Shown in pieces: positions 11,314 through 58,298 of a stretch of DNA of 64,000 nucleotides. The notes below the pieces were generated by a model. The model worked only from the letters and a program-made list of their open reading frames with translations, ran no database searches and had not been told where the DNA came from. The stretch is from Chitinophagaceae bacterium 26-R-25 (GTDB taxonomy: Bacteria; Bacteroidota; Bacteroidia; Chitinophagales; Chitinophagaceae): positions 310,001 to 374,000 of the forward strand of contig JARWSJ010000002.1 of NCBI GenBank assembly GCA_029906195.1, in the 5' to 3' direction. The position numbers were made by a program, and so were the translations under genes. Each line of letters begins with the position of its first letter. The stretch's first letter is position 1.

Positions 11314-11386
11314 AGGCTTGGTAAAGATACAATCCTTGATGGTAGTGGCACGGGGATTTACGTGACTGTGGAAAAATTGGGTATTA

Positions 11387-11525
11387 ATTGAAAATTGAAA
11401 GTTGAAAATTGAAAATGGGGTTCTAAGAAAGTCTCGTTTTATAAAAGCAAACGGTTTGAAGGCTAACCCTCAAACCGTTTTACATTATTTAGGCCCCAAA
11501 ATTTTCAATTTTCAACTTTCAACTT
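11387..11525. repeat. Inverted repeat, TTGAAAG/TTGAAAA word family (copy 2)
   Basis: The arms at 11387-11418 and about 11500-11525 enclose a second, unrelated stem (AAACGGTTTGA at 11449-11459 pairing with 11470-11480), which itself resembles a terminator. It lies between the M23 and MerR genes, both on the minus strand. Confidence 0.83.
11449..11484 (-). terminator. Hairpin inside the palindrome, after the M23 gene
   Basis: An 11-bp stem with a 10-base loop lies downstream of the M23 peptidase stop on the minus strand and could terminate its transcript before the MerR gene. The T-run on that strand is weak, so a bidirectional or structural role is also possible. Confidence 0.5.
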
Positions 11526-11529
11526 TCCA

Positions 11530-12507
11530 CTAATCAAAGCTCTGATTGCTCGCCGACGCCATCTTCAACAAGCGGTCGTATTGCTCTGGCGTTAAATCGT
11601 TATAGAAAAAGTAAACAGGATCGAGGGGCTTGCCGTTTTTGTGTACTTCGTAGTGGCAGTGTGGGCCTGTTGATTTTCCTGTGCTTCCCACATAACCGAT
11701 GATTTCACCACGTTTTATCTTTTGGCCCGGCGAACATTTCACCTTTACCATGTGGCCATACAGCGTTTCATAGCCATAACCATGGTTAATGACCACGTGG
11801 TTCCCATATCCGTTACCGGTGTTACCTGCAACAGAAATGGTACCGTTTGCCGTAGCATAGATAGGTGTTCCCTGCGGAGCAGCAAAGTCAAGACCAGCGT
11901 GCATTTTAACGGTTTTGTATACCGGATCAATACGGTGACCGAACCCAGAAGCGATACGGCTAAGGTCTTTGTTGCTCACCGGCTGAATGGCCGGAGTGGC
12001 TGCCAGCATCACCTCCTTATTTTTTACAAAACCTTCAATTTCGTTGTAAGATTTATCTTCATAAGCAATGCGCATCGTAAGGTTGTTAAGCGTACGTGCA
12101 ATAGACCCCGAAAGATCGTTTTCATCCATGCCCTGCAACAGTTCCAGCTCTTTTTTCTTTTCCATTTCCTTTACGCGGGCGCTGTCCGGAATCGGATCTG
12201 CTTCAAAGATGGAGCGGTAAACATTATTGTCGCGCTTCTCCAGGTCAGTCATTTGCTGTTGCAGCTTTTGCATGCGATCCTGCAGAACAGCATAGTTATT
12301 TTGCATATTCTCAAACCGGCCACTCATTACTTTTTCTTTCGGAGAATCTATGTATCGGAAGGCGATGGCTACTATTATTAGTGAGGTAACAATACTCGCG
12401 GCTATAAAGCCCAATACTCGTAACAGTTTTACGTGTAAAGGGGTTTCAAGCTTTTCATAGCGAAGGCTATTGGTATTATAGAAATATTTTATTTTTTTCA
12501 TGGCCAC
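11530..12507 (-). CDS. M23-family peptidoglycan endopeptidase, membrane-anchored
   Basis: A 325-residue protein with a cytoplasmic basic N terminus, one membrane segment (about residues 33-50), a coiled coil (about 65-95, MQNNYAVLQDRMQKLQQQM) and a C-terminal LytM domain. The zinc ligands are visible: H203 and D207 in MHAGLDF, and HCH at 283-285 in GPHCHYEVHKNGKPLDP. It should cut peptide cross-links in the cell wall or, like the MepM and EnvC groups, regulate such cutting. The domain order matches Bacteroidota M23 proteins encoded next to a small MerR-type gene and alaS, as here. Confidence 0.92.
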   Translation of the reverse strand: MAMKKIKYFYNTNSLRYEKLETPLHVKLLRVLGFIAASIVTSLIIVAIAFRYIDSPKEKVMSGRFENMQNNYAVLQDRMQKLQQQMTDLEKRDNNVYRSIFEADPIPDSARVKEMEKKKELELLQGMDENDLSGSIARTLNNLTMRIAYEDKSYNEIEGFVKNKEVMLAATPAIQPVSNKDLSRIASGFGHRIDPVYKTVKMHAGLDFAAPQGTPIYATANGTISVAGNTGNGYGNHVVINHGYGYETLYGHMVKVKCSPGQKIKRGEIIGYVGSTGKSTGPHCHYEVHKNGKPLDPVYFFYNDLTPEQYDRLLKMASASNQSFD

Positions 12508-27436: not shown

Positions 27437-27554
27437 AGGCTGTTTGAAAAATAAAAAGAATGTTACTTGTCATCCCGACGAAGGAGGGATCTGAGTCCTG
27501 CACCAGCAGCAATGTTGCGCAAGACGCAGATCCCTCCTTCGTCGGGATGACAAG
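27437..27554. repeat. Dispersed palindromic element with GTCATCCCGACGAAGG arms (copy 1)
   Basis: Perfect 28-base arms (27466-27493 and 27527-27554) read CTTGTCATCCCGACGAAGGA outward to GGGATCTG. The flank (GCTGTTTGAAAAATA) also matches the reverse complement of the flank of copy 2 at 34558-34653, so the unit is about 110 bases and occurs in both orientations. Confidence 0.88.
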
Positions 27555-34487: not shown

Positions 34488-34710
34488 TTAAGAATTCAAT
34501 GTCGTTTAGTTAAGGATTTTTGAACGGAATGTTGGTTGTGATCCGTTAGAAAAGACCGCTTGTCATCCCGACGAAGGAGGGATCTGGGTGATTGTTAACG
34601 CATAGTGTGCGCTAGTGTTAGGCTCAGATCCCTCCTTCGTCGGGATGACAAGCGACATGCTCTTAATTTTTCAAACAGCTTAACTAAACGACATTGAATT
34701 AAGAATTCTT
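34488..34710. repeat. Nested palindromes containing GTCATCCCGACGAAGG element (copy 2)
   Basis: The outer 22-base arms (34493-34514 and 34679-34700) are perfect complements, reading AATTCAATGTCGTTTAGTTA and onward. Inside them are perfect 29-base arms (34558-34586 and 34625-34653) shared with the element at 27437. This accounts for much of the 655-base gap between the metallo-beta-lactamase-fold and TfoX-like genes; no coding sequence is visible there. Confidence 0.88.
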
Positions 34711-42835: not shown

Positions 42836-43008
42836 AATTTGATCATTTACATATAAGAAGGCCGTTGAGAAATTATGTTTAAAATGAAACCGTTACAACA
42901 TTGTTAAAGCAACAGAATGGCTCCAATGTTTGTCAAGGCTATGTGTAATCCTATTATTAATTGCATCTTCATTACAAGATTGATAACTTGAATAAATTTT
43001 TTAAGCGC

Positions 43009-46000
43009 ATGACTAATAAAATCCTTCTATGGCTGGCGTTGTTGCTATTTGTCTTTTTATGTCCGATGACCATGAAAGCACAACCGCCAAAAACCAACTA
43101 TGATGTGTTTTGGAAAAAAGTGGATTCGCTTTACTCGAAGAAAGGCCTGACAAAGTCTGCCCTCGATGAGGTGAATAAAATATATGCGCTGGCGAAAAAA
43201 GAAAACCTGCAGCCGCAAATCATAAAAGCGCTGATATACAAATCGGGCCTGGAACAAAACCTCAATGAAGATGGAGACATCAAGAACATGCAGTTTTGGG
43301 AAAACGAAATTGCACAGGCAAATGTACCTGAAACAAAAGCACTATTAAACAGCATAGCTGCAGACAAGTACAATCGTTACTTTCAAAACAACCGTTGGAA
43401 ATTTTACAATAGAACCACAACGGTAAATTTTAAGAAAGACGACCCTTCCACCTGGAGTATTGATGACTTGCAGCAAAAAACTTCCAACTTGTATCTCGCT
43501 TCGATAAAAGATGAAAAGGTATTGCAGCAAACAAAACTCGATGCATACGATCCGATATTGGTAAAAGGAAATGTGCGTTACCTGCGCCCAACATTGTACG
43601 ACTTCCTGGCAAACCGTGCGCTCGAATTTTTCAAAACAGATGAACGTTACGTTACAAAACCCGCGTACACTTTCGAAATAACGCAAGCATCAGCATTTGA
43701 TCCTGCTGCTGATTTTATTCATCGCAAGTTTGAAACAAAAGATACTGCTTCCCTGCTTTTCAAAGCCTTGATGATCTACCAAAAATTAATTGCCTTCCAT
43801 ATTAATGATCAAAAGCCCGATGCCTTGCTGGATGTGGATATACAACGACTTCAGTTTGTCTATACATTTTCTGCAATGCCGGAAAAAGATACATACTACT
43901 TTAACGCGATTAACCATGTGGCACATCAATATGAAAGTTATCCGGCAGCAGCGCAGGCATGGTACCTGGTAGCGTTGTGGTATAATAACAAAGCCGCAGA
44001 GTATAAGCCTTTAAAGGACACTGCCAATAGGTATGAGAGTATGAAGGCCAAAGAAATTTGCGAAAAAATATTGCAACAAAAAGACTCCAGCGAAGGCAGG
44101 TTCAATTGTTGGATATTGTTGCAACAAATAAAGTATCGATTGCTTACACTCCAAACGGAGAAGGTGAATGTTCCGGGACAACCATTTAGAACGTTGGTCG
44201 CTTACAGAAACATGACCAAACTACATCTTCGCATTGTTGAATTAAGTGAAAATATGAAGTCCCGGTTGGAACAAAAATATGGTGATGCAGACAGTTATTG
44301 GCGTCAGATTGTGTCCTCGAAAACGCTTAAAAGCTGGTCCCAGGATTTGCCAGATACAAAAGACTATCAGTTGCACAATGTTGAAATAAAAATCGATGCA
44401 TTACCTGTTGGTGATTATTTATTGATTGCAAGCGCCGATGAAAAATTTTCATTGGATCAGAATCCACTCGCTTTGCAACGGTTCTATGTTTCCAATATCA
44501 GCTATTTGGACGGTGAGAAAGAATATTTTGTTCTTCATCGGGAAACCGGAAAGCCATTGCAGAATGCGCAAGTTCAAACATGGCTTATGTCTTATGATTA
44601 TACGACAAGAAAAAATGTAAAGGTAAAAGGACCGCTGGGAAATACTGACAGCAAGGGTTACGTAAAGTTCGAGGCGGATTCAGTGACACGAAATAAAAGC
44701 ATACAGATTGAAATCAAATATAAAGATGATCACCTGTTTATGGATGATCAGTCTTATAATTACTATAGGCCCGAAACTGTCATATCCGCTGATACAGCAA
44801 CTTTTGAGAAAAGAAACAGAAAGGTTTTCCTGTTTAGTGACAGACTGATTTATCGCCCCGGCCAGACGATTTATTTTAAGGGCATTGCTATTACAAAGGA
44901 TTTTGTAACAAGGAAAAGTAAAATAGTGCCTGGCGAAAAAACGACCATAGCACTATACAATGCCAATAATGAAAAAATAGATTCGCTTGAACTGACAACA
45001 AATGAATTCGGTTCTTACTCTGGCAAATTTAAATTGCCCGAAGGTGTTTTAAATGGACGATTTAGTATTGAAGACAAGAAATTTATCGGTGAACTTTCTT
45101 TTTCAGTAGAAGAATATAAAAGGCCAAAATTCTCGGTGGAATTTGATACGCTTACAACCGCCTTTCGTGTGAATGACAGTATCACTATTAAAGGCAGAGT
45201 CAAAGCTTTTGCGGGAAACAATATAGACGGGGCACAAGTAGTTTATCGTGTTACAAGAGAGGCTCGCTTTATTTATCCCTGGGCAGTTTATAAAGTGAGT
45301 AATTATTTAGCTCCAATGGAAATAGTCAACGGCATCGCCACCACCGGTGCAGATGGTTCCTTTACTGTTACTTTCAGAGCAATTCCAGATGGAGGTATTA
45401 GCAGGGAAGTCGAGCCGGTTTTTGATTACAATGTTACAGCTGATGTTACAGACATCAATGGGGAAACAAGAAGTGGAAAAACGACGGTGTCTGTTGGATA
45501 TAAATCAACGCAACTAGAGATAGGCTTGGAAGAAGATGCTCAGTTACTTATAGACAGCTTTAAAAAAGTAACCGTTACTGCAATGAACTTTAATGGCTAT
45601 AAAACACCTGCACTGGTGCAGCTACAAATCTTCAAATTGCAACAACAAGAAAGATTGATTCGTAAAAGGTATTGGGAGCAGGCCGATCAATTTGTAATGA
45701 GTTATGATGACTACGTAAAATATTTTCCTAATGACGAGTATAAAGATGAAAGCAAAAAGGAAAGCTGGAAGAAACTAGAAAAGGTTGTAGACCTGACAGA
45801 TAGCGCGAACAAAGACATTCCGTTAAACTATGGTAAACTAACACCCGGTTGGTACCTGGTACAGGCAATCGCTAAAGATAGAAATGGAGATACGGTAAAG
45901 GATTTGAGGTATGTACTGTTGGATGATAACAGTAGCAAGCTGGCAATACAAACATACATCACTGCGGCAGGAGATAGAAAAAGTATTCAACCTGGTGAGA

Positions 46001-49000
46001 AGAAAACAATCATGATCGGTTCTTCCGCGAACGACGTGACACTCATTCAGGAAATAAAAAGAAATGCACTGCTTGAAAAAAGACAAGCCGAATACAAGAT
46101 TGTCAATCTAAATAATGAGAAAAAGAGATTTGATATCTCTGCCTCCGAAGAGGATAGAGGTGGTATTTCGGTTAGATGTTTTTTTGTGAACAATAATAGA
46201 TACTATGCATTCACGAACAACGTTCTTGTGCCGTGGACAAATAAAGAGTTGGAAATTAACTATGAAACATGGCGGGACAAAACACTTCCCGGCAGCGAAG
46301 AAAAATGGAAAGTGAAAATTAGCGGATCTAAAAAAGAGAAAGTGGCAGCGGAAATGCTCGCAAGTATGTACGACGCGTCATTGGATGAGTTTACATCCAA
46401 TAGTTGGAATATACCAGATATATGGCCAACTTTAGAACAAAAGATTGATTGGCACTCATCTGGAAATTTTAACCAGGTTCTGTCGGAAAATAGAGAGGCC
46501 AACGATTATAACTATAGTGAGTTTGATAAAAAATACGACGAGTTAATAAGCATTGAAGAAAGAAGACGTGTTATGATGATGAAGGCCGCAGGTGTTGTGT
46601 CTTCAAAATTCGAAGATGAATATGCGAAGGTTCCCGCGGCAGAAGCGCTGTCGGCACGAGAGTTGTCAAATGGTAATGATATATTAGCGAACCGCCTAAA
46701 TGTTGACAAAAAGAGTAAAGCATTTGACTCAAGTAACATTCAGGACGTTCAGCTGCAGGATATCGTGGGTGCAAATGCCCCTGAAAACAAATCCCCAGTA
46801 CAACTCAGGAAAAATTTCAACGAAACCGCCTTCTTCTTCCCTGATTTAAAAACAGATGCAGAAGGAAACATCAGCTTCAGTTTCATCATGCCGGAAGCAT
46901 TGACCAAATGGACGTTCCAGGCATTGGCGCACACAAAAGATCTTTCATTGGGTTACTCAACTGTAGATGTGGTAACACAAAAAGAACTGATGATCCAACC
47001 AAATGCACCACGCTTTTTACGCGAAGGAGATAAAATAGAACTGAGTGCGAAGGTGGTGAACATGAGTGATAAAGAGTTGACGGGAACAGTGCAGCTTGAA
47101 TTGCTGAATGCATCAACTATGCAACCGGTAGATGGTTGGTTCCAGAACATTCAGCCGCTGCAATACTTTACGGTTAGCGCAGGACAAAGTTCTCCAATGA
47201 AGTTTAGCGTAAACATTCCATACGGGTTTAACAATGCCGTAGTGTATCGTTTCAAAGCCATCTCCGGAAATATAAGCGATGGCGAAGAAATGGCTTTGCC
47301 GGTGGTTGCAAACAGCATGTTGGTGACAGAAAGCATGCCGTTGAATTTGCGCAACACAAATTCCAAATCATTCACTTTTGATAAATTATTGCAATCAGGT
47401 AAAAGCGAAACATTGCAGCAACATGCTTTGACGGTTGAATACACATCCAATCCGGCCTGGTATGCAGTGCAATCATTACCATACTTAACCGATTTTCCTT
47501 ACGAATGTGCCGAGCAAACATTCAACCGCTACTATGCAAACGCATTGGCAGGAATGATTGCGAATAAAGCGCCTAAGTTGAAAGCAATTGTAGAAAAATG
47601 GAACACAACAGACTCATCTGCGTTGCTGAGCAATCTGCAAAAGAATGAAGAACTGAAATCTGTATTGCTGGAAGAAACACCCTGGGTACTGGAAGCAAAA
47701 AATGAAGCACAGCAAAAGAAAAACATCGCACTGCTGTTTGACATGGTGCGCATGAATGCAAGCTTGCAAACAACCTACGACAAGCTGAAACAATTGCAAA
47801 GTGATAACGGCGGATTCGTTTGGTTCAAAGGTGGACCTGATGACAGATACATCACGCAATACATTGCAAGCAGCATCGGCCATTTGAAAAAGTTAGGAGC
47901 GCTTCAACAAACAAAACAAGATTGGAATGAAATTTCAAAAAATGCAGTTGCATATCTTGACAAGAGAATAACTGAAGATTACAATGAGTTGGTAAAAAAG
48001 AAAATTGATTTAAAGAAAAACAATCTCAGCTACATTGCTATTCAGTATTTGTACATGCGCAGCTTCTACAATGATATCGCCATTCCCGGCAGTGCTATGA
48101 ATGCGATTAGTTATTACAGAAAACAGGCGCAACAATATTGGTTGCAACAAGGCATTTACGCAAAAGGAATGATAGCTCTCGCACTAAACAGAACTGGTGA
48201 TAAAGCGAACGCCGCGGCGATCATTAAATCCCTGCAACAAAATGCCATTGTAAACGAAGAGCAGGGAATGTATTGGAAAGACGTCAGATCCGGTTATTTC
48301 TGGTACGAGGCACCAATCGAAACGCAATCATTGATGATCGAAGCATTTACTGAAATTTCAAACAATACCAAAACAGTGAACGATCTTAAAACATGGTTGC
48401 TGAAAAACAAACAAACCAATAACTGGAAAACAACGAAGGCTACAGCAGATGCATGTTACGCATTGCTGTTGCAAGGCAGCGATTGGTTGAGTGAAACGCC
48501 TGCAGTTACAATCAAATTGGGTGACAAAACAATCAGCAGTACAGATAGTAAAACAGAAGCTGGAACAGGATATTTCAAAACCACTATTGACGGCCCATTT
48601 GTAAAACCGGAGATGGGAAATATTACTGTGAATGTTACTGGCAACACTAACAATACAACGTCATGGGGAAGCGTGTACTGGCAGTATTTTGAAAGACTGG
48701 AAAACATTACGCCGTCTGCAACGCCGCTGAAGCTGAGTAAGAAACTGTTTGTTGAAAAGAACACAGATCGCGGTCCTGTGCTGCAACCGTTAAATGAAAA
48801 CGATGTATTAAAAGTAGGTGACAAGATTAAAGTGCGCATCGAACTTCGTGCCGATCGCGACATGGAATATGTGCACATGAAAGACATGCGTGCAAGTTGC
48901 ATGGAGCCGGTAAATGTAATCAGTACCTACAAATGGCAGGACGGACTGGGTTATTACGAAAGCACTAAGGATGCAAGCACCAATTTCTTTTTCAACTACG

Positions 49001-49143
49001 TAAGAAAAGGAACCTATGTTTTCGAATATCCATTATTTGTAACACATGAGGGCAATTTCAGCAACGGTGTTACAACCATTCAATGCATGTATGCACCGGA
49101 GTTCTCGAGCCATAGTGAAGGCGTGCGTGTGAACGTTGAGTAG
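43009..49143 (+). CDS. Alpha-2-macroglobulin family protein with thioester motif
   Basis: A 2044-residue exported protein. The start at 43009 gives a signal peptide (ILLWLALLLFVFLCPMTMKA, then Q); the reading frame could extend upstream to a TTG but that adds nothing coherent. About 580 N-terminal residues are helical repeats and a carboxypeptidase-regulatory-like strand segment, then macroglobulin domains beginning near residue 605 (MG2 motif YRPGQTIYFKG at 615-625), the A2M domain from about 1270 (FNETAFFFPDLKTDAEGNIS), and the complement-like helical domain with the thioester motif C1500-A-E-Q1503. Proteins of this kind trap attacking proteases by a bait region and covalent capture. It is longer than the 1500-1650-residue proteobacterial form, and no pbpC partner is next to it. 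Confidence 0.93.
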   Translation: MTNKILLWLALLLFVFLCPMTMKAQPPKTNYDVFWKKVDSLYSKKGLTKSALDEVNKIYALAKKENLQPQIIKALIYKSGLEQNLNEDGDIKNMQFWENEIAQANVPETKALLNSIAADKYNRYFQNNRWKFYNRTTTVNFKKDDPSTWSIDDLQQKTSNLYLASIKDEKVLQQTKLDAYDPILVKGNVRYLRPTLYDFLANRALEFFKTDERYVTKPAYTFEITQASAFDPAADFIHRKFETKDTASLLFKALMIYQKLIAFHINDQKPDALLDVDIQRLQFVYTFSAMPEKDTYYFNAINHVAHQYESYPAAAQAWYLVALWYNNKAAEYKPLKDTANRYESMKAKEICEKILQQKDSSEGRFNCWILLQQIKYRLLTLQTEKVNVPGQPFRTLVAYRNMTKLHLRIVELSENMKSRLEQKYGDADSYWRQIVSSKTLKSWSQDLPDTKDYQLHNVEIKIDALPVGDYLLIASADEKFSLDQNPLALQRFYVSNISYLDGEKEYFVLHRETGKPLQNAQVQTWLMSYDYTTRKNVKVKGPLGNTDSKGYVKFEADSVTRNKSIQIEIKYKDDHLFMDDQSYNYYRPETVISADTATFEKRNRKVFLFSDRLIYRPGQTIYFKGIAITKDFVTRKSKIVPGEKTTIALYNANNEKIDSLELTTNEFGSYSGKFKLPEGVLNGRFSIEDKKFIGELSFSVEEYKRPKFSVEFDTLTTAFRVNDSITIKGRVKAFAGNNIDGAQVVYRVTREARFIYPWAVYKVSNYLAPMEIVNGIATTGADGSFTVTFRAIPDGGISREVEPVFDYNVTADVTDINGETRSGKTTVSVGYKSTQLEIGLEEDAQLLIDSFKKVTVTAMNFNGYKTPALVQLQIFKLQQQERLIRKRYWEQADQFVMSYDDYVKYFPNDEYKDESKKESWKKLEKVVDLTDSANKDIPLNYGKLTPGWYLVQAIAKDRNGDTVKDLRYVLLDDNSSKLAIQTYITAAGDRKSIQPGEKKTIMIGSSANDVTLIQEIKRNALLEKRQAEYKIVNLNNEKKRFDISASEEDRGGISVRCFFVNNNRYYAFTNNVLVPWTNKELEINYETWRDKTLPGSEEKWKVKISGSKKEKVAAEMLASMYDASLDEFTSNSWNIPDIWPTLEQKIDWHSSGNFNQVLSENREANDYNYSEFDKKYDELISIEERRRVMMMKAAGVVSSKFEDEYAKVPAAEALSARELSNGNDILANRLNVDKKSKAFDSSNIQDVQLQDIVGANAPENKSPVQLRKNFNETAFFFPDLKTDAEGNISFSFIMPEALTKWTFQALAHTKDLSLGYSTVDVVTQKELMIQPNAPRFLREGDKIELSAKVVNMSDKELTGTVQLELLNASTMQPVDGWFQNIQPLQYFTVSAGQSSPMKFSVNIPYGFNNAVVYRFKAISGNISDGEEMALPVVANSMLVTESMPLNLRNTNSKSFTFDKLLQSGKSETLQQHALTVEYTSNPAWYAVQSLPYLTDFPYECAEQTFNRYYANALAGMIANKAPKLKAIVEKWNTTDSSALLSNLQKNEELKSVLLEETPWVLEAKNEAQQKKNIALLFDMVRMNASLQTTYDKLKQLQSDNGGFVWFKGGPDDRYITQYIASSIGHLKKLGALQQTKQDWNEISKNAVAYLDKRITEDYNELVKKKIDLKKNNLSYIAIQYLYMRSFYNDIAIPGSAMNAISYYRKQAQQYWLQQGIYAKGMIALALNRTGDKANAAAIIKSLQQNAIVNEEQGMYWKDVRSGYFWYEAPIETQSLMIEAFTEISNNTKTVNDLKTWLLKNKQTNNWKTTKATADACYALLLQGSDWLSETPAVTIKLGDKTISSTDSKTEAGTGYFKTTIDGPFVKPEMGNITVNVTGNTNNTTSWGSVYWQYFERLENITPSATPLKLSKKLFVEKNTDRGPVLQPLNENDVLKVGDKIKVRIELRADRDMEYVHMKDMRASCMEPVNVISTYKWQDGLGYYESTKDASTNFFFNYVRKGTYVFEYPLFVTHEGNFSNGVTTIQCMYAPEFSSHSEGVRVNVE

Positions 49144-49159
49144 GATCGGGATGTAAATT

Positions 49160-49248
49160 ATGTACGATGTCCGATGTACGGTGTACGAAATTTATCTTGG
49201 AGTAAAACTCTAAAGTATTTCGTACACCGTACATCGGACATCGTACAT
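49160..49248. repeat. Perfect inverted repeat, GTACGATGTCCG word family
   Basis: Arms of 32 bases (49160-49191 and 49217-49248) match without error and consist of GTACGATGTCCGATGTACGG-type words. It lies between the alpha-2-macroglobulin and FAD oxidoreductase genes. A single arm of the same word is at 62742. Confidence 0.93.
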
Positions 49249-51099: not shown

Positions 51100-51909
51100 C
51101 TACGCTAAATACTTGTTATAATATTTTCCCGTGATCACACTATTGGGGTCCTGGTTCAAAACCCGTACCATGGCATTATAGAGATCAGGTAGTTCGTGGA
51201 GCATGCGCATCGGACTCTCGAAGAAAGTCTCCACACTTACTGCCCAGAATTCATGATAATTCGTAGCTGCGTAATCTCCTAATAAAGTCTTTCTTCCTTT
51301 TTGCATTTCCTGAAAAACAGGTCTTGCCACTTTGGAGAAATTCTTGAATTCTTTTTTGAAAATTTTATCTTCTTCAGTACGTGTAATAAAATTTACGTAA
51401 GCCAACGCGTGGGCCATTTCATGCAGGCCAACATTGCTATTGTCTTGTGCATTGTGCAGGCCGTGCAGAAAATCATCCCATGACAAATAGATGCCTGTGC
51501 TATCCACATGCCCCATAAATGGCAATGAATAGTAGCCGTAATGATAGTCATGCTGCAGCACGTAGATATCATGGAAATAGTTGAGTGAAAATTTCTGCAG
51601 GCCAAGTGTGAGTTGTGTTGCCACGGCGCTGATGAGAATAGGCATGTCCTCACGTTTTTCTATGCCAACGTAGTGAAATTTTTTTGACCGCCTGAACAGG
51701 TATGTTCTGAAAAGCATCTTGTGCTGTTCTTCTGAGCTAAGCCTGTTGAAATAAGGAATGTTTTGCGAAATGATTGTCCGGTAGTAAGCTTCGTGTTGTG
51801 CGAAACCTTTTTTTCGATGGTAAAATATAAACTTCTCAAAGCGGGACTGTACAGCGCCAAAGAAGAGTATGATTAATAACACCGTACCTAAAATGTACAA
51901 GATTTCCAT
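51100..51909 (-). CDS. MtfA-type zinc metallopeptidase, membrane-anchored
   Basis: A 269-residue protein with an N-terminal hydrophobic segment (residues 4-20) and a zinc peptidase domain: the HEMAH zinc motif at 163-167 within GLHEMAHALAYVN, and a downstream glutamate E220 in NYHEFWAVSVETFFESP, the position of the third ligand in MtfA. MtfA of E. coli senses and inactivates the glucose repressor Mlc, but the Bacteroidota members lack that partner, so only peptidase activity is predicted. The start codon is the first ATG and gives the membrane segment. Confidence 0.87.
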   Translation of the reverse strand: MEILYILGTVLLIILFFGAVQSRFEKFIFYHRKKGFAQHEAYYRTIISQNIPYFNRLSSEEQHKMLFRTYLFRRSKKFHYVGIEKREDMPILISAVATQLTLGLQKFSLNYFHDIYVLQHDYHYGYYSLPFMGHVDSTGIYLSWDDFLHGLHNAQDNSNVGLHEMAHALAYVNFITRTEEDKIFKKEFKNFSKVARPVFQEMQKGRKTLLGDYAATNYHEFWAVSVETFFESPMRMLHELPDLYNAMVRVLNQDPNSVITGKYYNKYLA

Positions 51910-52138: not shown

Positions 52139-52297
52139 TGATAATTAAGAATTAAGAATTAGGAATTAAGAATTCTTTCTGTGCTACACCGTGATAAGTA
52201 TCCAAACACCTTTCTTTTGGTCAAGTATTACTGCTTCCTTTCTATAATCGAAGTGGCACTGGAAGCATTCTTAATTCCTAATTCTTAATTCTTAATT
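52139..52297. repeat. Inverted repeat, AATTAAGAATTAGG word family
   Basis: The left arm at 52139-52172 is AATTAAGAATTAAGAATTAG-like and the right arm at about 52268-52297 is TTCCTAATTCTTAATTCTTA-like. Confidence 0.82.
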
Positions 52298-52538
52298 TGC
52301 CTCGATACAACTCAACTAGCCTTTTACAACTTCTGTACAGCGGTTTCCTCAGCTAATGCTTCTTCCACCTTTTTCACAGAAAAAAACTTACTTTTTTTAC
52401 ACTCGATTTGAGTCTTGTATGGCGAAGATGATATATCGCAATTTGCTCCGTCACACCTCTTGAATGCATTTCCGGGCATCTATGCAAACCCGTTCCTGTA
52501 TCCGCTTTGTAAGCTTTTTAAAACAAACAACAATACAA

Positions 52539-52549
52539 ACCTAAAACCT
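52539..52549 (+). promoter_or_regulatory. Conserved leader motif of the lipoprotein array
   Basis: ACCTAAAACCT ends five bases before the ATG and recurs at 53406, 54320 (one base different), 54835 and 55488 at the same spacing. The spacing points to translation initiation or transcript-start control. Confidence 0.6.
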
Positions 52550-52554
52550 TTATT

Positions 52555-53034
52555 ATGACACAGTTCACAAAGAAAGCTGCGATGATTATTCTATCTGTAG
52601 CAGTAATGGTCGGATGTAAAAAGGATGACAACAAAAACAGCAGCAAATCCAAAACAGAACTGCTGACTACCGGTAGTTGGAAACAAACAAGTATTTATTT
52701 TAGCCCCGCCGTGGATTGGGATGGAGATGGCCACACAGAAAATGAAGTGATTAACCTTTATTCGCCTTGTAACAGAGATGATCTAATGACTTTTAAATCA
52801 AACGGTACCGTCGTAAGCGATGAAGGCACTTCCAAATGTGATCCGTCAGATCCGCAGGTAATAGAAACAACCAACTGGAAGTTTTCAGACAATGAAACGA
52901 AGATATTGATTGGTAACCCGGGAGAGGAGGAAGCAGCACAATTGCTTGAACTTAGCACTACGGTACTAAAAGTAAAAATCACTATGGTAGAAGCGGGCGT
53001 TACTTATACGGAGACCCTTACGTTTGGGCACTAG
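52555..53034 (+). CDS. Lipocalin-like lipoprotein, array copy 1
   Basis: A 159-residue exported lipoprotein with lipobox ending at C21 (VAVMVGC). The mature part follows the Bacteroidota lipocalin-like pattern: LLTTGSWKQTS, a calcium-type loop DWDGDGHTENEV, two cysteines that can pair (SPCNRDD and SKCDPSDP), then TNWKFSDNETKILI and LLELSTTVLKVKI. The function of such proteins is unknown; the barrel suggests ligand binding at the outer membrane. First of five tandem paralogues. A palindrome with an internal stem follows. Confidence 0.85.
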   Translation: MTQFTKKAAMIILSVAVMVGCKKDDNKNSSKSKTELLTTGSWKQTSIYFSPAVDWDGDGHTENEVINLYSPCNRDDLMTFKSNGTVVSDEGTSKCDPSDPQVIETTNWKFSDNETKILIGNPGEEEAAQLLELSTTVLKVKITMVEAGVTYTETLTFGH

Positions 53035-53038
53035 GGGT

Positions 53039-53186
53039 TAGTTGAAAGTTGAAAATTGAAAGTTGAAAATGGAGGGCATTACGTGTAAACAATCCCCCTC
53101 CTATAAAATGCAGAAAGGTCGAAATCTTATTGAAGGTCGACTTTCTGCATTTTCAATTTTCGACTTTCAACTTTCAATTTCCAACT
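53039..53186. repeat. Inverted repeat, TTGAAAG/TTGAAAA word family (copy 4), with inner stem
   Basis: The outer arms are at about 53039-53069 and 53150-53185. Inside is a second stem, ATGCAGAAAGGTCGA (53108) with TCGACTTTCTGCAT (ending 53150). That inner stem is homologous to the one in the copy at 55975. Confidence 0.85.
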
Positions 53187-53421
53187 ACATTTTGTACCTT
53201 CTACGGAGCATTCTTCTATTAAGCCTTTCCTGCCTGTATAAAACCGGATTTATTTTTATACCCGATTTGCACTTTTGTACGACTATGTGAGTAGCAATCA
53301 ACCTGCATTTTTCTTTCGCTGTTTTTTGAATTCGTATCCAGTCATCTATGCAAGACCGCTATTGTATTCTGTACTATTGGTATTCACTCTAAAATAACAA
53401 TACAAACCTAAAACCTCTATT

Positions 53422-53898
53422 ATGACAAACTTTACAAAGAGAGCGGTGCTGGTGATTCTGGCTGTAGCAGTAATTGTGGGATGCAAAAAAGATGACAAAA
53501 ATAACGGCAGTAGTAAAACGCAATTGATTACATCCGGAAATTGGAAAGTAACCAGCGACTATTATGACCCTGCGGTGGATTGGGATGGAGACGGCCACAC
53601 AGAGAATGAAGTATTTAGCCTGTATAGTGCCTGCGATAAGGATGATATTCTGGTATTTAAAACAGACGGCAGTCTTACATTTGACGAAGGTGCTTCAAAA
53701 TGCGATCCGTCAGATCCACAGGTGATCGAAACCACATCATGGAAGTTTTCAAACAATGAAACTGTTTTACTTGTTGGGCCTTCAGGTTCTGAAACTTCTG
53801 TACAGCTGCTTGAACTCAGTTCAACCACCTTGAAAATAAAAGTGCCATTTACGGCACAGGGAGTTAATTACACAGAGACAACGACTTATTCGCATTAG
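53422..53898 (+). CDS. Lipocalin-like lipoprotein, array copy 2
   Basis: A 158-residue paralogue with lipobox at C21 (VAVIVGC). It keeps DWDGDGHTENEV, the cysteine pair (SACDKDD and SKCDPSDP) and TSWKFSNNETVLLV. It is the copy most similar to copy 1. The 387-base gap before it holds a palindrome and the second leader (CTATGCAAGACCGCTATTG near 53345). The stop is followed at once by a TAGTTGTTAG palindrome. Confidence 0.85.
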   Translation: MTNFTKRAVLVILAVAVIVGCKKDDKNNGSSKTQLITSGNWKVTSDYYDPAVDWDGDGHTENEVFSLYSACDKDDILVFKTDGSLTFDEGASKCDPSDPQVIETTSWKFSNNETVLLVGPSGSETSVQLLELSSTTLKIKVPFTAQGVNYTETTTYSH

Positions 53899-53985
53899 AG
53901 TTGCTGGTTTATAGTTGTTGGTTGTTAAACCTCATAGCAAAGGCTACATTTAAGCGGCTAACAACTAACAACTATTAACAATCAA
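53899..53985. repeat. Inverted repeat, TAGTTGTTAG word family (copy 3)
   Basis: TTTATAGTTGTTGGTTGTTA (from about 53909) pairs with CTAACAACTAACAACTATTA (from about 53959). It begins at the stop codon of array copy 2. Confidence 0.82.
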
Positions 53986-54084
53986 CTTTAAAAGAAACTT
54001 ATTTTTTTGTTTGCCTCCGTTATACTTTTCTACGACTACTGCAGCAATCACCTTATCTTGTTCTTTCTCGTCGCCGGCAAAGCC

Positions 54085-54190
54085 TCTCCAATCTTCCATG
54101 CAAAACCGCTACTGCGTTCAGATTCATTTATAAGCTTCCCGAAATAACCACACAAAGCTTGAATTGGCTGGTTGATAGTTGTTAGATATT
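54085..54190 (+). other. Orphan array leader without a gene
   Basis: This segment carries the array leader pattern (CTTCCATGCAAAACCGCT at about 54090, then AAATAACCACACAAAG) but breaks off where ACCTAAAACCT and the start codon should be, and continues as a TAGTTGTTAG word arm (about 54168-54187). A complete leader for copy 3 begins again at about 54250. It looks like the remnant of a sixth array copy. Confidence 0.6.
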
Positions 54191-54335
54191 CTATGCAATA
54201 CTTTATACAACGTCTACTTTAAAAAGACTGATGCACCTCTGATAAGACATCTCCAACTTTTCATGCAAAACCGCTGTGTTTCTGGTTTAGTTACAATTTT
54301 TTGCGCAATAAGATCACACATCTAAAACCTGTATT

Positions 54336-54794
54336 ATGACACAGTTTAGTAAAAGAGCTGCGATAATCGTTTTAACAGTAGCTGTAATTGCTGGATGTAA
54401 AAAAGAAAATAGTGCTCCTACAAAAACACAATTGTTAACCAGTGGCAGTTGGAAACTTACAAGCGAATATTTTGACGTTGCCGTTGACATGAATGGAGAT
54501 GGCCATGTAGAGAACGAAGTAATCAATGTTCTTCCCTCATGTTTTACAGATAACATTACGATTTTTAAAGAGGACGGTACCGTTATTCGTGACGAAGGAT
54601 TGTCAAAATGCGATCCAAATGATCCTCAGGTTATTGAAACAACCAAATGGAGATTTTCGGAGTTTGAAACTAAAATATTGATTGGAGATCCGGGCTATGA
54701 GGATGTGGGCCAGTTGGTCGAGCTCAGCGCAACTGTCTTAATGATAAAAGTCGGTACGCCTGGCAGCGGAATCACCTTAACATTCGAACACTAA
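54336..54794 (+). CDS. Lipocalin-like lipoprotein, array copy 3
   Basis: A 152-residue paralogue with lipobox at C21 (VAVIAGC). The loop is DMNGDGHVENEV, and the cysteines are in LPSCFTDN and SKCDPNDP. It is slightly shorter at the C terminus, where GSGITLTFEH replaces the longer -YTETLT- ending of copy 1. Confidence 0.85.
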   Translation: MTQFSKRAAIIVLTVAVIAGCKKENSAPTKTQLLTSGSWKLTSEYFDVAVDMNGDGHVENEVINVLPSCFTDNITIFKEDGTVIRDEGLSKCDPNDPQVIETTKWRFSEFETKILIGDPGYEDVGQLVELSATVLMIKVGTPGSGITLTFEH

Positions 54795-54850
54795 ATTGTA
54801 AACCTATATTCCAATTCGTTTCGAAGCAACACAAACCTAAAACCTTAGTT

Positions 54851-55330
54851 ATGACACCTTTTTCAAAGAAAATGGCGATGGTCATTTTAACCGTAGCAAT
54901 TATTATTGCAGGATGCAAAAAACCCGATGACAGCAACCCTTCCCAAACCGCCCTATTAACCACAGGCAGTTGGAAACTGACAAGCTTGATTTCTGACCCG
55001 GCCGAGGATTGGGACCGGGACGGCATACCCGACCGCGAAGTGATGCAGATTTTTCAGGAATGCTTGACTGATAATATCTTGACCTTTCGAGCAGATGGTG
55101 GTCTTGTGAATGACGAAGGTGCTTCAAAATGTTACGGTGTTCAGCTCCAGACAGAAATAACTCACTGGAGCTTTTTCAACGATGGAACTAAAATAATAAT
55201 GGCAAAGGCAGGAAGTTTGGATACAGTTGAGTTACTTGAACTTAGCAGAACGGTATTAAAAATAAAAGGTCCTTTCGGGCAGGGAGGGGGAGGGCTTACC
55301 GTTATTTTAACCCAAACCTACGGGCATTAA
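54851..55330 (+). CDS. Lipocalin-like lipoprotein, array copy 4 (divergent)
   Basis: A 159-residue paralogue with lipobox at C22 (VAIIIAGC). It is the most divergent copy: the loop reads DWDRDGIPDREV, and the SKCDPSDP segment has become SKCYGVQLQ, while the first cysteine (QECLTDN) remains. It has only a short leader (56 bases) and lacks the CATGCAAAACCGC element seen before the other copies. The Gly-rich GQGGGGLTV near the end is unique to it. Confidence 0.83.
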   Translation: MTPFSKKMAMVILTVAIIIAGCKKPDDSNPSQTALLTTGSWKLTSLISDPAEDWDRDGIPDREVMQIFQECLTDNILTFRADGGLVNDEGASKCYGVQLQTEITHWSFFNDGTKIIMAKAGSLDTVELLELSRTVLKIKGPFGQGGGGLTVILTQTYGH

Positions 55331-55503
55331 CAGTCAGCAATTGATAGTTGTTAGTCTTGTGTGCCGCATTCTAGCACACATACCCTTGCAACCAACACGC
55401 TTTTTCCTCTGGTGAAACATCTTCAACTTTCATGAAAAGCCGCGGTGGTCTGGTTTATTCAGATTTTTTTTCGAAACAACATTACACACCTAAAACCTGT
55501 ATT

Positions 55504-55974
55504 ATGACACAGTTTACTAAGAAAGCTGCGATGATCGTTTTAACCGTAGCTGTAATTGCAGGATGTCACAAAAATGATAGCGCTCCTTCCAAAACTGACC
55601 TTTTAACCAGTGGCAGTTGGAGACTAACCGCCTCGCATGTTGATCCTGCCATTGATGCTAACGGCGACGGGGTCGTAGAAAACGACATCTTCGCCGTTGC
55701 TCTACCATGCGTCAAGGACAACCTTATGACCTTTAAAAGAGAGGGTACCTATACTATTGACGAGGGCGCTACAAAGTGCGATCCCTCTGCTCCGCAGATT
55801 ATGGAAAGCTCGAACTGGAAATTTATGGACAATGAATCTAAAATAGTGATTGGCGATCCCGGATATGAGGAGACCGGTCAACTGCTTGAGCTGAGTTCGA
55901 CAGTGTTACAAATAAAAATCTTTATTGATGATGGCGGCTCTGGCCTTAATGTTACACAGACGTATGGACATTAG
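55504..55974 (+). CDS. Lipocalin-like lipoprotein, array copy 5
   Basis: A 156-residue paralogue with lipobox at C21 (VAVIAGC). The start at 55504 gives the signal shared by all copies; the longer open frame upstream is leader sequence. The loop is DANGDGVVENDI and the cysteines are in LPCVKDN and TKCDPSAP. Near its start it most resembles copy 3. Last member of the array; a palindrome separates it from the convergent trmD. Confidence 0.85.
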   Translation: MTQFTKKAAMIVLTVAVIAGCHKNDSAPSKTDLLTSGSWRLTASHVDPAIDANGDGVVENDIFAVALPCVKDNLMTFKREGTYTIDEGATKCDPSAPQIMESSNWKFMDNESKIVIGDPGYEETGQLLELSSTVLQIKIFIDDGGSGLNVTQTYGH

Positions 55975-56118
55975 GAGTTGAAAATTGAAAGTTGAAAGTT
56001 GAAAATGCAAAAAGGTCAAACATCGGTTATAATGTTCGACCTTTTTCGTATTATAAAACAAAGGAAATCGAGATATCAGAGCACCTCATTTTCAACTTTC
56101 AACTTTCAATTTTCAATT
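55975..56118. repeat. Inverted repeat, TTGAAAG/TTGAAAA word family (copy 5), with inner stem
   Basis: The outer arms are at 55976-56007 and 56087-56118. The inner stem (AAAAAGGTC...GACCTTTTT, about 56008-56047) resembles the inner stem at 53108. It lies between the convergent array copy 5 and trmD and is placed to terminate both. Confidence 0.87.
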
Positions 56119-56788
56119 ACTCCAGGTCCGGTCTGCGCTCTGTAGTTCGCGCCACTGCCTGTTCATAGCGCCACTGTTCAATTTTTTTAGGGTCGCCGCT
56201 TAATAATATCTGCGGCACTTCCCAACCACGAAAGCTGGCAGGACGCGTATATACTGGAGGTGCCAGTAAATTATCCTGGAAAGAATCCGTAAGGGCAGAA
56301 GTTTCATCATTCAACACACCGGGTATAATGCGCCCGATAGCATCCACCACAACCGCCGCAGCAAGCTCGCCACCACTGAGAACGTAATCGCCGATGGAAA
56401 TTTCAAGTGTAACAAAATGCTGGCGAATGCGTTCGTCAATGCCTTTATAGTGTCCACAGATGATCAGAAGATTTTCGTAAAGAGACAACCGGTTGGCAGT
56501 CTGTTGATCAAAGCGTTTGCCGTCCGGCGTCATGTAAATGATCTCATCATACTTTCTTTCACTTTGCAAATGCTCGATCGCGTTTGCCAGCGGCTCGCAC
56601 ATCATTACCATGCCGGCACCACCACCATATTGATAATCATCCACCTGTCCGTATTCATTCACGGCCCATTGCCTTAGCTGGTGCACATGCACTTCCAGCA
56701 AACCTTTTGTTTGTGCACGCTTCATAATAGAATGAGAGAAAGGGCTTTCCAGTAATTCCGGCAATACGGAAATGATGTCGATTCGCAT
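56117..56788 (-). CDS. trmD: tRNA (guanine-N1-)-methyltransferase
   Basis: A 223-residue SPOUT-family enzyme that methylates G37 next to the anticodon using S-adenosylmethionine and prevents frameshifts. It starts with the family pattern [13 protein letters not shown], and has [11 protein letters not shown], the knot segments [14 protein letters not shown] and [20 protein letters not shown], and ends in the C-terminal [19 protein letters not shown] segment. Length is typical. The usual neighbours rimM, rpsP and rplS are absent, so it is a stand-alone unit here. Confidence 0.96.
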
Positions 56789-58187: not shown

Positions 58188-58298
58188 GTTGAATAAACTG
58201 AATAACTGAGTAACTGAATAACTGAGTGATTAAAATTCAAACAGACTCCTTGAACATAAACATTCAGTTATTCAGTTACTCAGTTATTCAGTTATTGA
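58188..58298. repeat. Inverted repeat, TAACTGAA word family (copy 3)
   Basis: The left arm is a run of TAACTGAA/TAACTGAG words (58188-58228); the right arm is TTCAGTTATTCAGTTACTCA-like (about 58261-58298). It separates convergent genes and can terminate both. Confidence 0.86.

Follow-up and report, generated by a model that had tools for sequence, protein, structure and literature searches.

The stretch of DNA analyzed here (the window), 64,000 nucleotides from contig JARWSJ010000002.1 of Chitinophagaceae bacterium 26-R-25, carries five lipocalin-like lipoprotein genes in tandem. Birth-and-death evolution describes their history, as opposed to a recent amplification, a dosage effect, or antigenic variation. 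All five are genuine members of a single family, with chance ruled out by protein identity and by synteny in two further species. All are read on the plus strand: copy 1 (52555..53034, 159 residues), copy 2 (53422..53898, 158 residues), copy 3 (54336..54794, 152 residues), copy 4 (54851..55330, 159 residues), and copy 5 (55504..55974, 156 residues). For copy 5, the list of open reading frames (ORFs) gives a start at 55432 (180 residues), which homology moves to 55504. The original prediction, made from the sequence without database searches, described five diverged tandem lipoprotein genes of 152-159 residues, and all five ORFs were indeed found, with identities to copy 1 of 64, 63, 48, and 58% for copies 2, 3, 4, and 5, respectively. 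A closely similar signal peptide and lipobox are present in all five, and each mature part features one cysteine pair, as had been proposed. A DxDGDG loop had also been assigned to every copy. Its strict form is restricted to copies 1 and 2, and a relaxed form, Dx[DN]xDG with two acidic positions after it, is found in all five and in all 12 array proteins of the genus. The window genome holds nine family-like matches, none with internal stops. Copy 4 is the most diverged and lies 56 nt behind copy 3, with which it is perhaps co-transcribed.

The window genome (six contigs, 6.5 Mb) belongs to the genus Pinibacter within the Chitinophagaceae, and the comparison within the genus covers three genomes, one per species: that of the window, Pinibacter aurantiacus MAH-26, and P. 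soli MAH-24. At the same site these genomes carry five, three, and four copies, respectively, so that copy number differs between the species. Copy 1 is 89% identical to its orthologue in P. aurantiacus and 84% identical to that in P. soli, and the order 1-2-3 of the orthologue sets is conserved across the three genomes. All nine orthologue pairs are under purifying selection, with ratios of nonsynonymous to synonymous substitution (dN/dS) of 0.07-0.22 (Nei-Gojobori, whole gene) that are rough, as several dS values exceed 1. An identical number and order of copies under purifying selection only had been named earlier as the mark of an ancient, stable set; the order and the purifying selection are kept, and the number is not.

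Synonymous sites are near saturation between paralogues. In the mature part, the mean proportion of synonymous differences (pS) is 0.73 in 19 same-genome paralogue pairs and also 0.73 in 38 different-genome pairs, and this equality gives no sign of general gene conversion. Concerted evolution was considered and rejected, same-genome paralogues showing no excess likeness by pS. The sole parts that look homogenized are the signal peptides of copies 3 and 5 (pS 0.19, about 16 sites) and the leaders of these two copies. Identity over mature segments is 0.32-0.71 among six representative copies as opposed to 0.62-0.93 in six orthologue pairs, and that of the signal peptide is 0.68 among the representative copies as opposed to 0.73 among orthologues. 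At residues 66-76, the paralogues share an identity of 0.32 and the orthologues 0.86; copy-specific sequence is most marked around the first cysteine and in strands C and G. Old, separately conserved copies fit this pattern of divergence better than recent amplification does. Of the roles once suggested for the array, dosage is not supported, given copies only 48-64% identical to copy 1 and the near saturation of their synonymous sites, and neither is antigenic variation, given the low dN/dS of all nine orthologue pairs, the equal pS, and the nine genome matches free of internal stops. Ligand diversification between copies would be compatible with the sequences.

The phylogeny, like the motif counts given below, is based on 66 of 71 family frames. 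In this 66-member tree the 12 array proteins form one clade (support of 99 in the Shimodaira-Hasegawa-like approximate likelihood ratio test, SH-aLRT). The orthologue sets of copies 1 and 3 each span the three species, and that of copy 2 unites the window gene (w2) with its P. aurantiacus counterpart (a2), with the P. soli gene (s2) joining at 82. Copy 5 joins the copy 3 set at 95 in the 66-member tree and is unplaced in a second tree of 19 rows. Copy 4 and the third gene of P. soli (X) sit on long branches; they are grouped at 82 in the first tree and are also unplaced in the second. Between copies 2 and 3, both the window and P. aurantiacus feature a leader that precedes no gene (53972..54110, plus strand, in the window), and the window stretch 53914-54155 matches the gene-less leader of P. 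aurantiacus with a score of 301. Within P. soli, the window leader is most similar to that of X (score 60), followed by that of the second gene (48), with 29 as the best of 300 shuffles; a copy was therefore probably lost, leaving its leader behind. Judging from these sequences, the simplest reading is that X would have been lost in the common ancestor of the window species and P. aurantiacus, and that copies 4 and 5 would have been gained in the window species or kept only there. If copy 4 is a moved X, this history changes only in detail. In outline, the ancestor of Pinibacter would have possessed one lipocalin-like lipoprotein gene that, along with its leader, underwent tandem duplication, and the copies would afterwards have been gained and lost by birth and death. 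The array has the appearance of an unremarkable, long-established family whose copies are slowly gained and lost.

A tandem duplication that carried the leader along, as first proposed, is supported by the paralogy of the genes and by their shared upstream DNA. The latter comprises a repeat family (D1) with five copies of 119 nt, 63-83% identical to the reference copy, along with shared leader elements, and the duplicated unit does include upstream DNA. A box had been placed 90-100 bases before the ATG; it starts 72-74 bases before it in copies 1, 2, 3, and 5 and is absent from copy 4. The position given for the ATG-proximal motif was correct, with ACCTAAAACCT ending 5 bases before the ATG (in copy 3, ATCTAAAACCT, with one mismatch). 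All leaders lie on the plus strand. That of copy 1 (52465..52554) features the box variant ATGCAAACCCGTT at 52482 and AACAACAATACAAACCTAAAACCT before the ATG; those of copy 2 (53348..53421), copy 3 (54263..54335), and copy 5 (55432..55503) feature ATGCAAGACCGCT at 53348, ATGCAAAACCGCT at 54263, and the variant ATGAAAAGCCGCG at 55432, respectively. The 14-mer CATGCAAAACCGCT occurs exactly at 54097-54110, in the gene-less leader, and at 54262-54275, before copy 3, and these are the only two sites of the exact 13-mer box in the whole genome, the boxes of copies 1, 2, and 5 being variants. Over 13 leaders, two of them gene-less, identity is 0.71 in the box columns, 0.49 in the columns before the box, 0.53 in the spacer, and 0.83 at the ATG end.

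A structured leader RNA was rejected: RNAalifold found no consensus pair in the 13 leaders, six single leaders fold no better than their shuffles (z 0.16 to 1.46), and all eight Rfam matches to the leaders fall below the gathering scores. A dispersed regulon built on the box was rejected as well. With up to one mismatch allowed, the 13-base box has 31 sites in the genome, compared with 11 for a reversed control, which is a modest excess. Twelve plus-strand sites were checked among the 20 located of these 31, and no array-like leader was seen among them outside the array: three are array sites (the gene-less leader and copies 2 and 3), seven fall inside open frames 274 codons long or longer, and two lie in DNA unlike the array leader. 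It is plausible that the leader acts as an operator, or as an unstructured 5' or translation leader, and would thereby keep the copies under similar control.

The lipocalin barrel suggested earlier is predicted confidently by AlphaFold for copies 1 and 4, with a mean predicted local distance difference test (pLDDT) of 92.2 and 89.4, respectively, and a predicted template modeling score (pTM) of 0.82 for both. The two models feature a short N-terminal helix, a single eight-stranded antiparallel barrel, and further short elements. When the copy 1 model was searched with Foldseek, the best match was 4nw4 (E 8.5e-5, the sole match below 0.001), followed mainly by lipocalins. VIA-align placed potempin E (8ehd, Z 11.3 over 97 residues) and the lipocalin-like Bacteroides protein 4qrl (BACUNI_01346, Z 11.2) on top, and next other bacterial lipocalin-like proteins, including 5byp (Z 10.4), and a surface glycan-binding protein, so that lipocalin-like Bacteroides structures and glycan-binding structures are among the best fold matches. 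The likeness to 4qrl and 5byp is one of fold; in contrast, sequence identity is 13-14%, and the titles of both structures assign no function. No sequence match to a solved structure is better than E 0.66. For the Pfam family PF13648 (Lipocalin_4), which shares the predicted barrel, copies 1 and 2 (24.3 and 28.3 bits) lie above the gathering cut-off of 22.4 bits, whereas copies 3-5 (16.7, 14.4, and 17.2 bits) lie below it, and the array adds to this family the DxDxDG loop, the cysteine pair, and the tandem arrangement. PF13648 matches 26 of 37 aligned family members at E <= 0.1. A G-x-W on the first strand is a lipocalin motif, and G40 and W42 are invariant in the 12 array proteins.

In the predicted secondary structure of copy 1, the A-B and C-D loops contain the DxDxDG loop, C72, and C95. 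The calcium-type loop, a putative metal site, and the cysteine pair would hence occupy two barrel loops, which are presumably on the same end of the barrel, and C72 and C95 may form a disulfide. The cysteine motif is found in 12 of 12 array proteins, in all 22 members of a group located near nadE and moxR (see below), and in 27 of 32 others. Of those 22 members, one carries the strict acidic loop and 16 the looser form [DN]x[DN]x[DN]G.

The family is widespread, with a 37-member profile (E <= 1e-8) finding it in at least 130 of 214 Chitinophagaceae genomes. Local duplication recurs as well: each of the 11 fetched loci with neighboring matches contains two or more family frames. The largest of them, in another genome of the family (L109, G134:C1:668000-678500), holds four within 10.5 kb; an array of such size is therefore not unique to Pinibacter. 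The loci compared, 48 in number, were picked as best or tandem matches and are thus a non-random set, and two of them (L100 and L126) are one stretch, leaving 47. In a recount made later than the tree, 21 of the 47 loci have a family member no more than 1.5 kb from nadE or moxR. There are 25 distinct members of this kind, all 25 on the strand opposite to these genes, and the fetched stretch contains both genes for 21 of the 25. Where present, the order is gldB, nadE, family member, moxR, DUF58, bat, with names given by Pfam. The 22 such members in the tree occupy one side of a branch (SH-aLRT 94), and the array lies on the other. They share with the array the profile family and the cysteine motif; unlike the array, they are single or paired and at a different site. 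The window genome itself has such a gene, single and outside the array, at C5:101260-101715 (L079:3261-3716). Among the matches listed in literature searches on Bat together with MoxR and a lipoprotein, and on lipocalin-like lipoproteins of Bacteroidetes, none concerned this gene by its title or the start of its abstract, subscription journals being thinly covered.

In all three Pinibacter genomes the array is flanked by the same two genes, which in the window are an M90 peptidase (MtfA-like) gene on the left (51100..51909, minus strand) and a gene for tRNA (guanine-1)-methyltransferase (TrmD) on the right (56117..56788, minus strand). Among 60 Chitinophagaceae genomes, an M90 match is found in 19 that lie outside the genus, 18 of which also have a trmD match; the two lie on different contigs in 17 genomes and 174 kb apart in one (G029), a comparison that draft contigs limit. 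An ancient M90-trmD synteny was rejected, as the two were not seen as neighbors outside Pinibacter among these 60 genomes, within the limits of draft contigs. A second, neighboring M90 match occurs in seven genomes (G010, G024, G028, G030, G062, G063, and G075), and in three (G004, G026, and G029) two M90 matches lie further apart.

Taken together, the array may be explained as a birth-and-death set of ligand-binding barrels at the surface or outer membrane with copy-specific partners, an explanation that in its entirety has about an even chance of being right and whose evolutionary part is far surer than its ligand part. The mature proteins would reside at the outer membrane, in some cases on the cell surface, and each copy would use the same scaffold to bind its own ligand, be it a small molecule, a glycan, or a protein. 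In Capnocytophaga canimorsus lipoproteins, C-X-K-(D/E)2 is described as a surface export signal (PMC5080379). Eight of the 12 array proteins carry it, including copies 1 and 2 of the window, by a rule that was drawn from another family of the phylum. For the nadE-moxR group the corresponding count (0 of 22) is an undercount, an earlier cysteine having been picked in some members, and was not used. Several points weigh against the explanation. The export signal is missing from three of the five window copies, and the fold does not yield a function. Neither strand face stands out in variation (0.47 as opposed to 0.45), which gives no support to a changing cavity. Finally, the 19-row tree leaves the 12 array proteins unseparated from two relatives of the C1:117905 type, with most of its forks open.

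An alternative possibility, though an improbable one, is that the proteins are potempin-like protease inhibitors, diversified to match several co-expressed or foreign proteases. Potempins of Tannerella forsythia are small lipoproteins with genes directly before those of KLIKK proteases (PMC7296668). The array proteins are likewise small lipoproteins of similar predicted fold, potempin E being the top VIA-align match of copy 1 and an M90 peptidase gene adjoining the array. However, that match is tied with 4qrl, which has no assigned function, and no solved structure is matched in sequence better than E 0.66. No KLIKK-type protease was found among the five neighbors scanned with Pfam, the rest of the genome not having been searched for one, and no partner protease gene lies directly beside the array, where the M90 gene reads away from it, in a neighborhood with trmD not seen outside the genus, and TrmD is the other neighbor. 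The case for potempins is one of predicted fold and appears weaker than that for ligand binding.

Equally doubtful is an envelope or stress role tied to Bat (aerotolerance), by which the array would be a set of additional copies from a family that has its conserved member beside moxR-bat. The members near nadE or moxR speak for such a role by their number, their uniform strand, and their place on one side of a branch, as does the presence of one on contig C5 of the window genome. The array, however, occupies another site and falls on the opposite side of that branch, and none of its neighbors is a bat gene; the loci were picked non-randomly, and gene order by itself is not function. A more speculative combination, rather unlikely but conceivable, is that the conserved member works with Bat at the envelope, and that a sister gene was multiplied in Pinibacter to give an array of surface receptors or inhibitors that each have a different partner. 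It is very unlikely that the array provides poly-immunity, its lipoproteins shielding the cell against several related competitor toxins. Diverged small lipoproteins in tandem would suit this, and copy 1 matches the BSAP-5i immunity family at E 0.028, and among four of 37 family members with matches the best E is 0.003; however, the match covers only residues 8-45 of copy 1 (signal peptide, linker, and start of the domain) at 14.5 bits against a cut-off of 150, and no toxin domain was found in the five scanned neighbors. An antigenic or phase-variable surface repertoire, suggested by tandem surface-type lipoproteins and the low pS between the signal peptides of copies 3 and 5, is scarcely credible given purifying selection, stable orthologues, and no general homogenization within a genome.

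Long inverted repeats are also present in the window. Of 49 pairs found, 25 with arms of 30-45 nt were listed, among them those at 52143-52297, 53042-53177, 53895-53991, 55973-56121, 58196-58293, 49160-49248, 11383-11534, and 14 further sites. Most of the arms are themselves short-period repeats, with units that differ between sites. After copy 1, both arms are made of a TTGAAAG-like unit in the window and of a GAGTTGA-like unit in P. aurantiacus, and the arms therefore changed together with their pairing kept; the folds are -61.8 kcal/mol in the window, -69.1 in P. aurantiacus, and -45.7 in P. soli. Two other inverted repeats, at 27466-27554 and 34557-34654, are built on CTTGTCATCCCGACGAAGGAGGGATCTG, with arms 94 and 100% complementary, and are putatively akin to repetitive extragenic palindromic (REP) elements. 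Elsewhere, a protein putatively labeled alpha-2-macroglobulin-like carries VVVVGYGTAKKKDVAGA or VVVIGYGTQKKKDVTGA in P. aurantiacus and P. soli (L075:11184-14000 and L076:11522-13999), a stretch that we take to resemble the SusC plug motif; the window copy (42961-49143) has no GYGT.

Ultimately, the five genes are a real and well-preserved but ordinary paralogue array of a known family. It is a compact and clear case of birth and death among surface-type lipoproteins, in which a gene-less leader marks the place of a probable lost copy. The genomic context of the related lipoprotein gene found repeatedly next to the bat operon is a more useful lead than the array itself.

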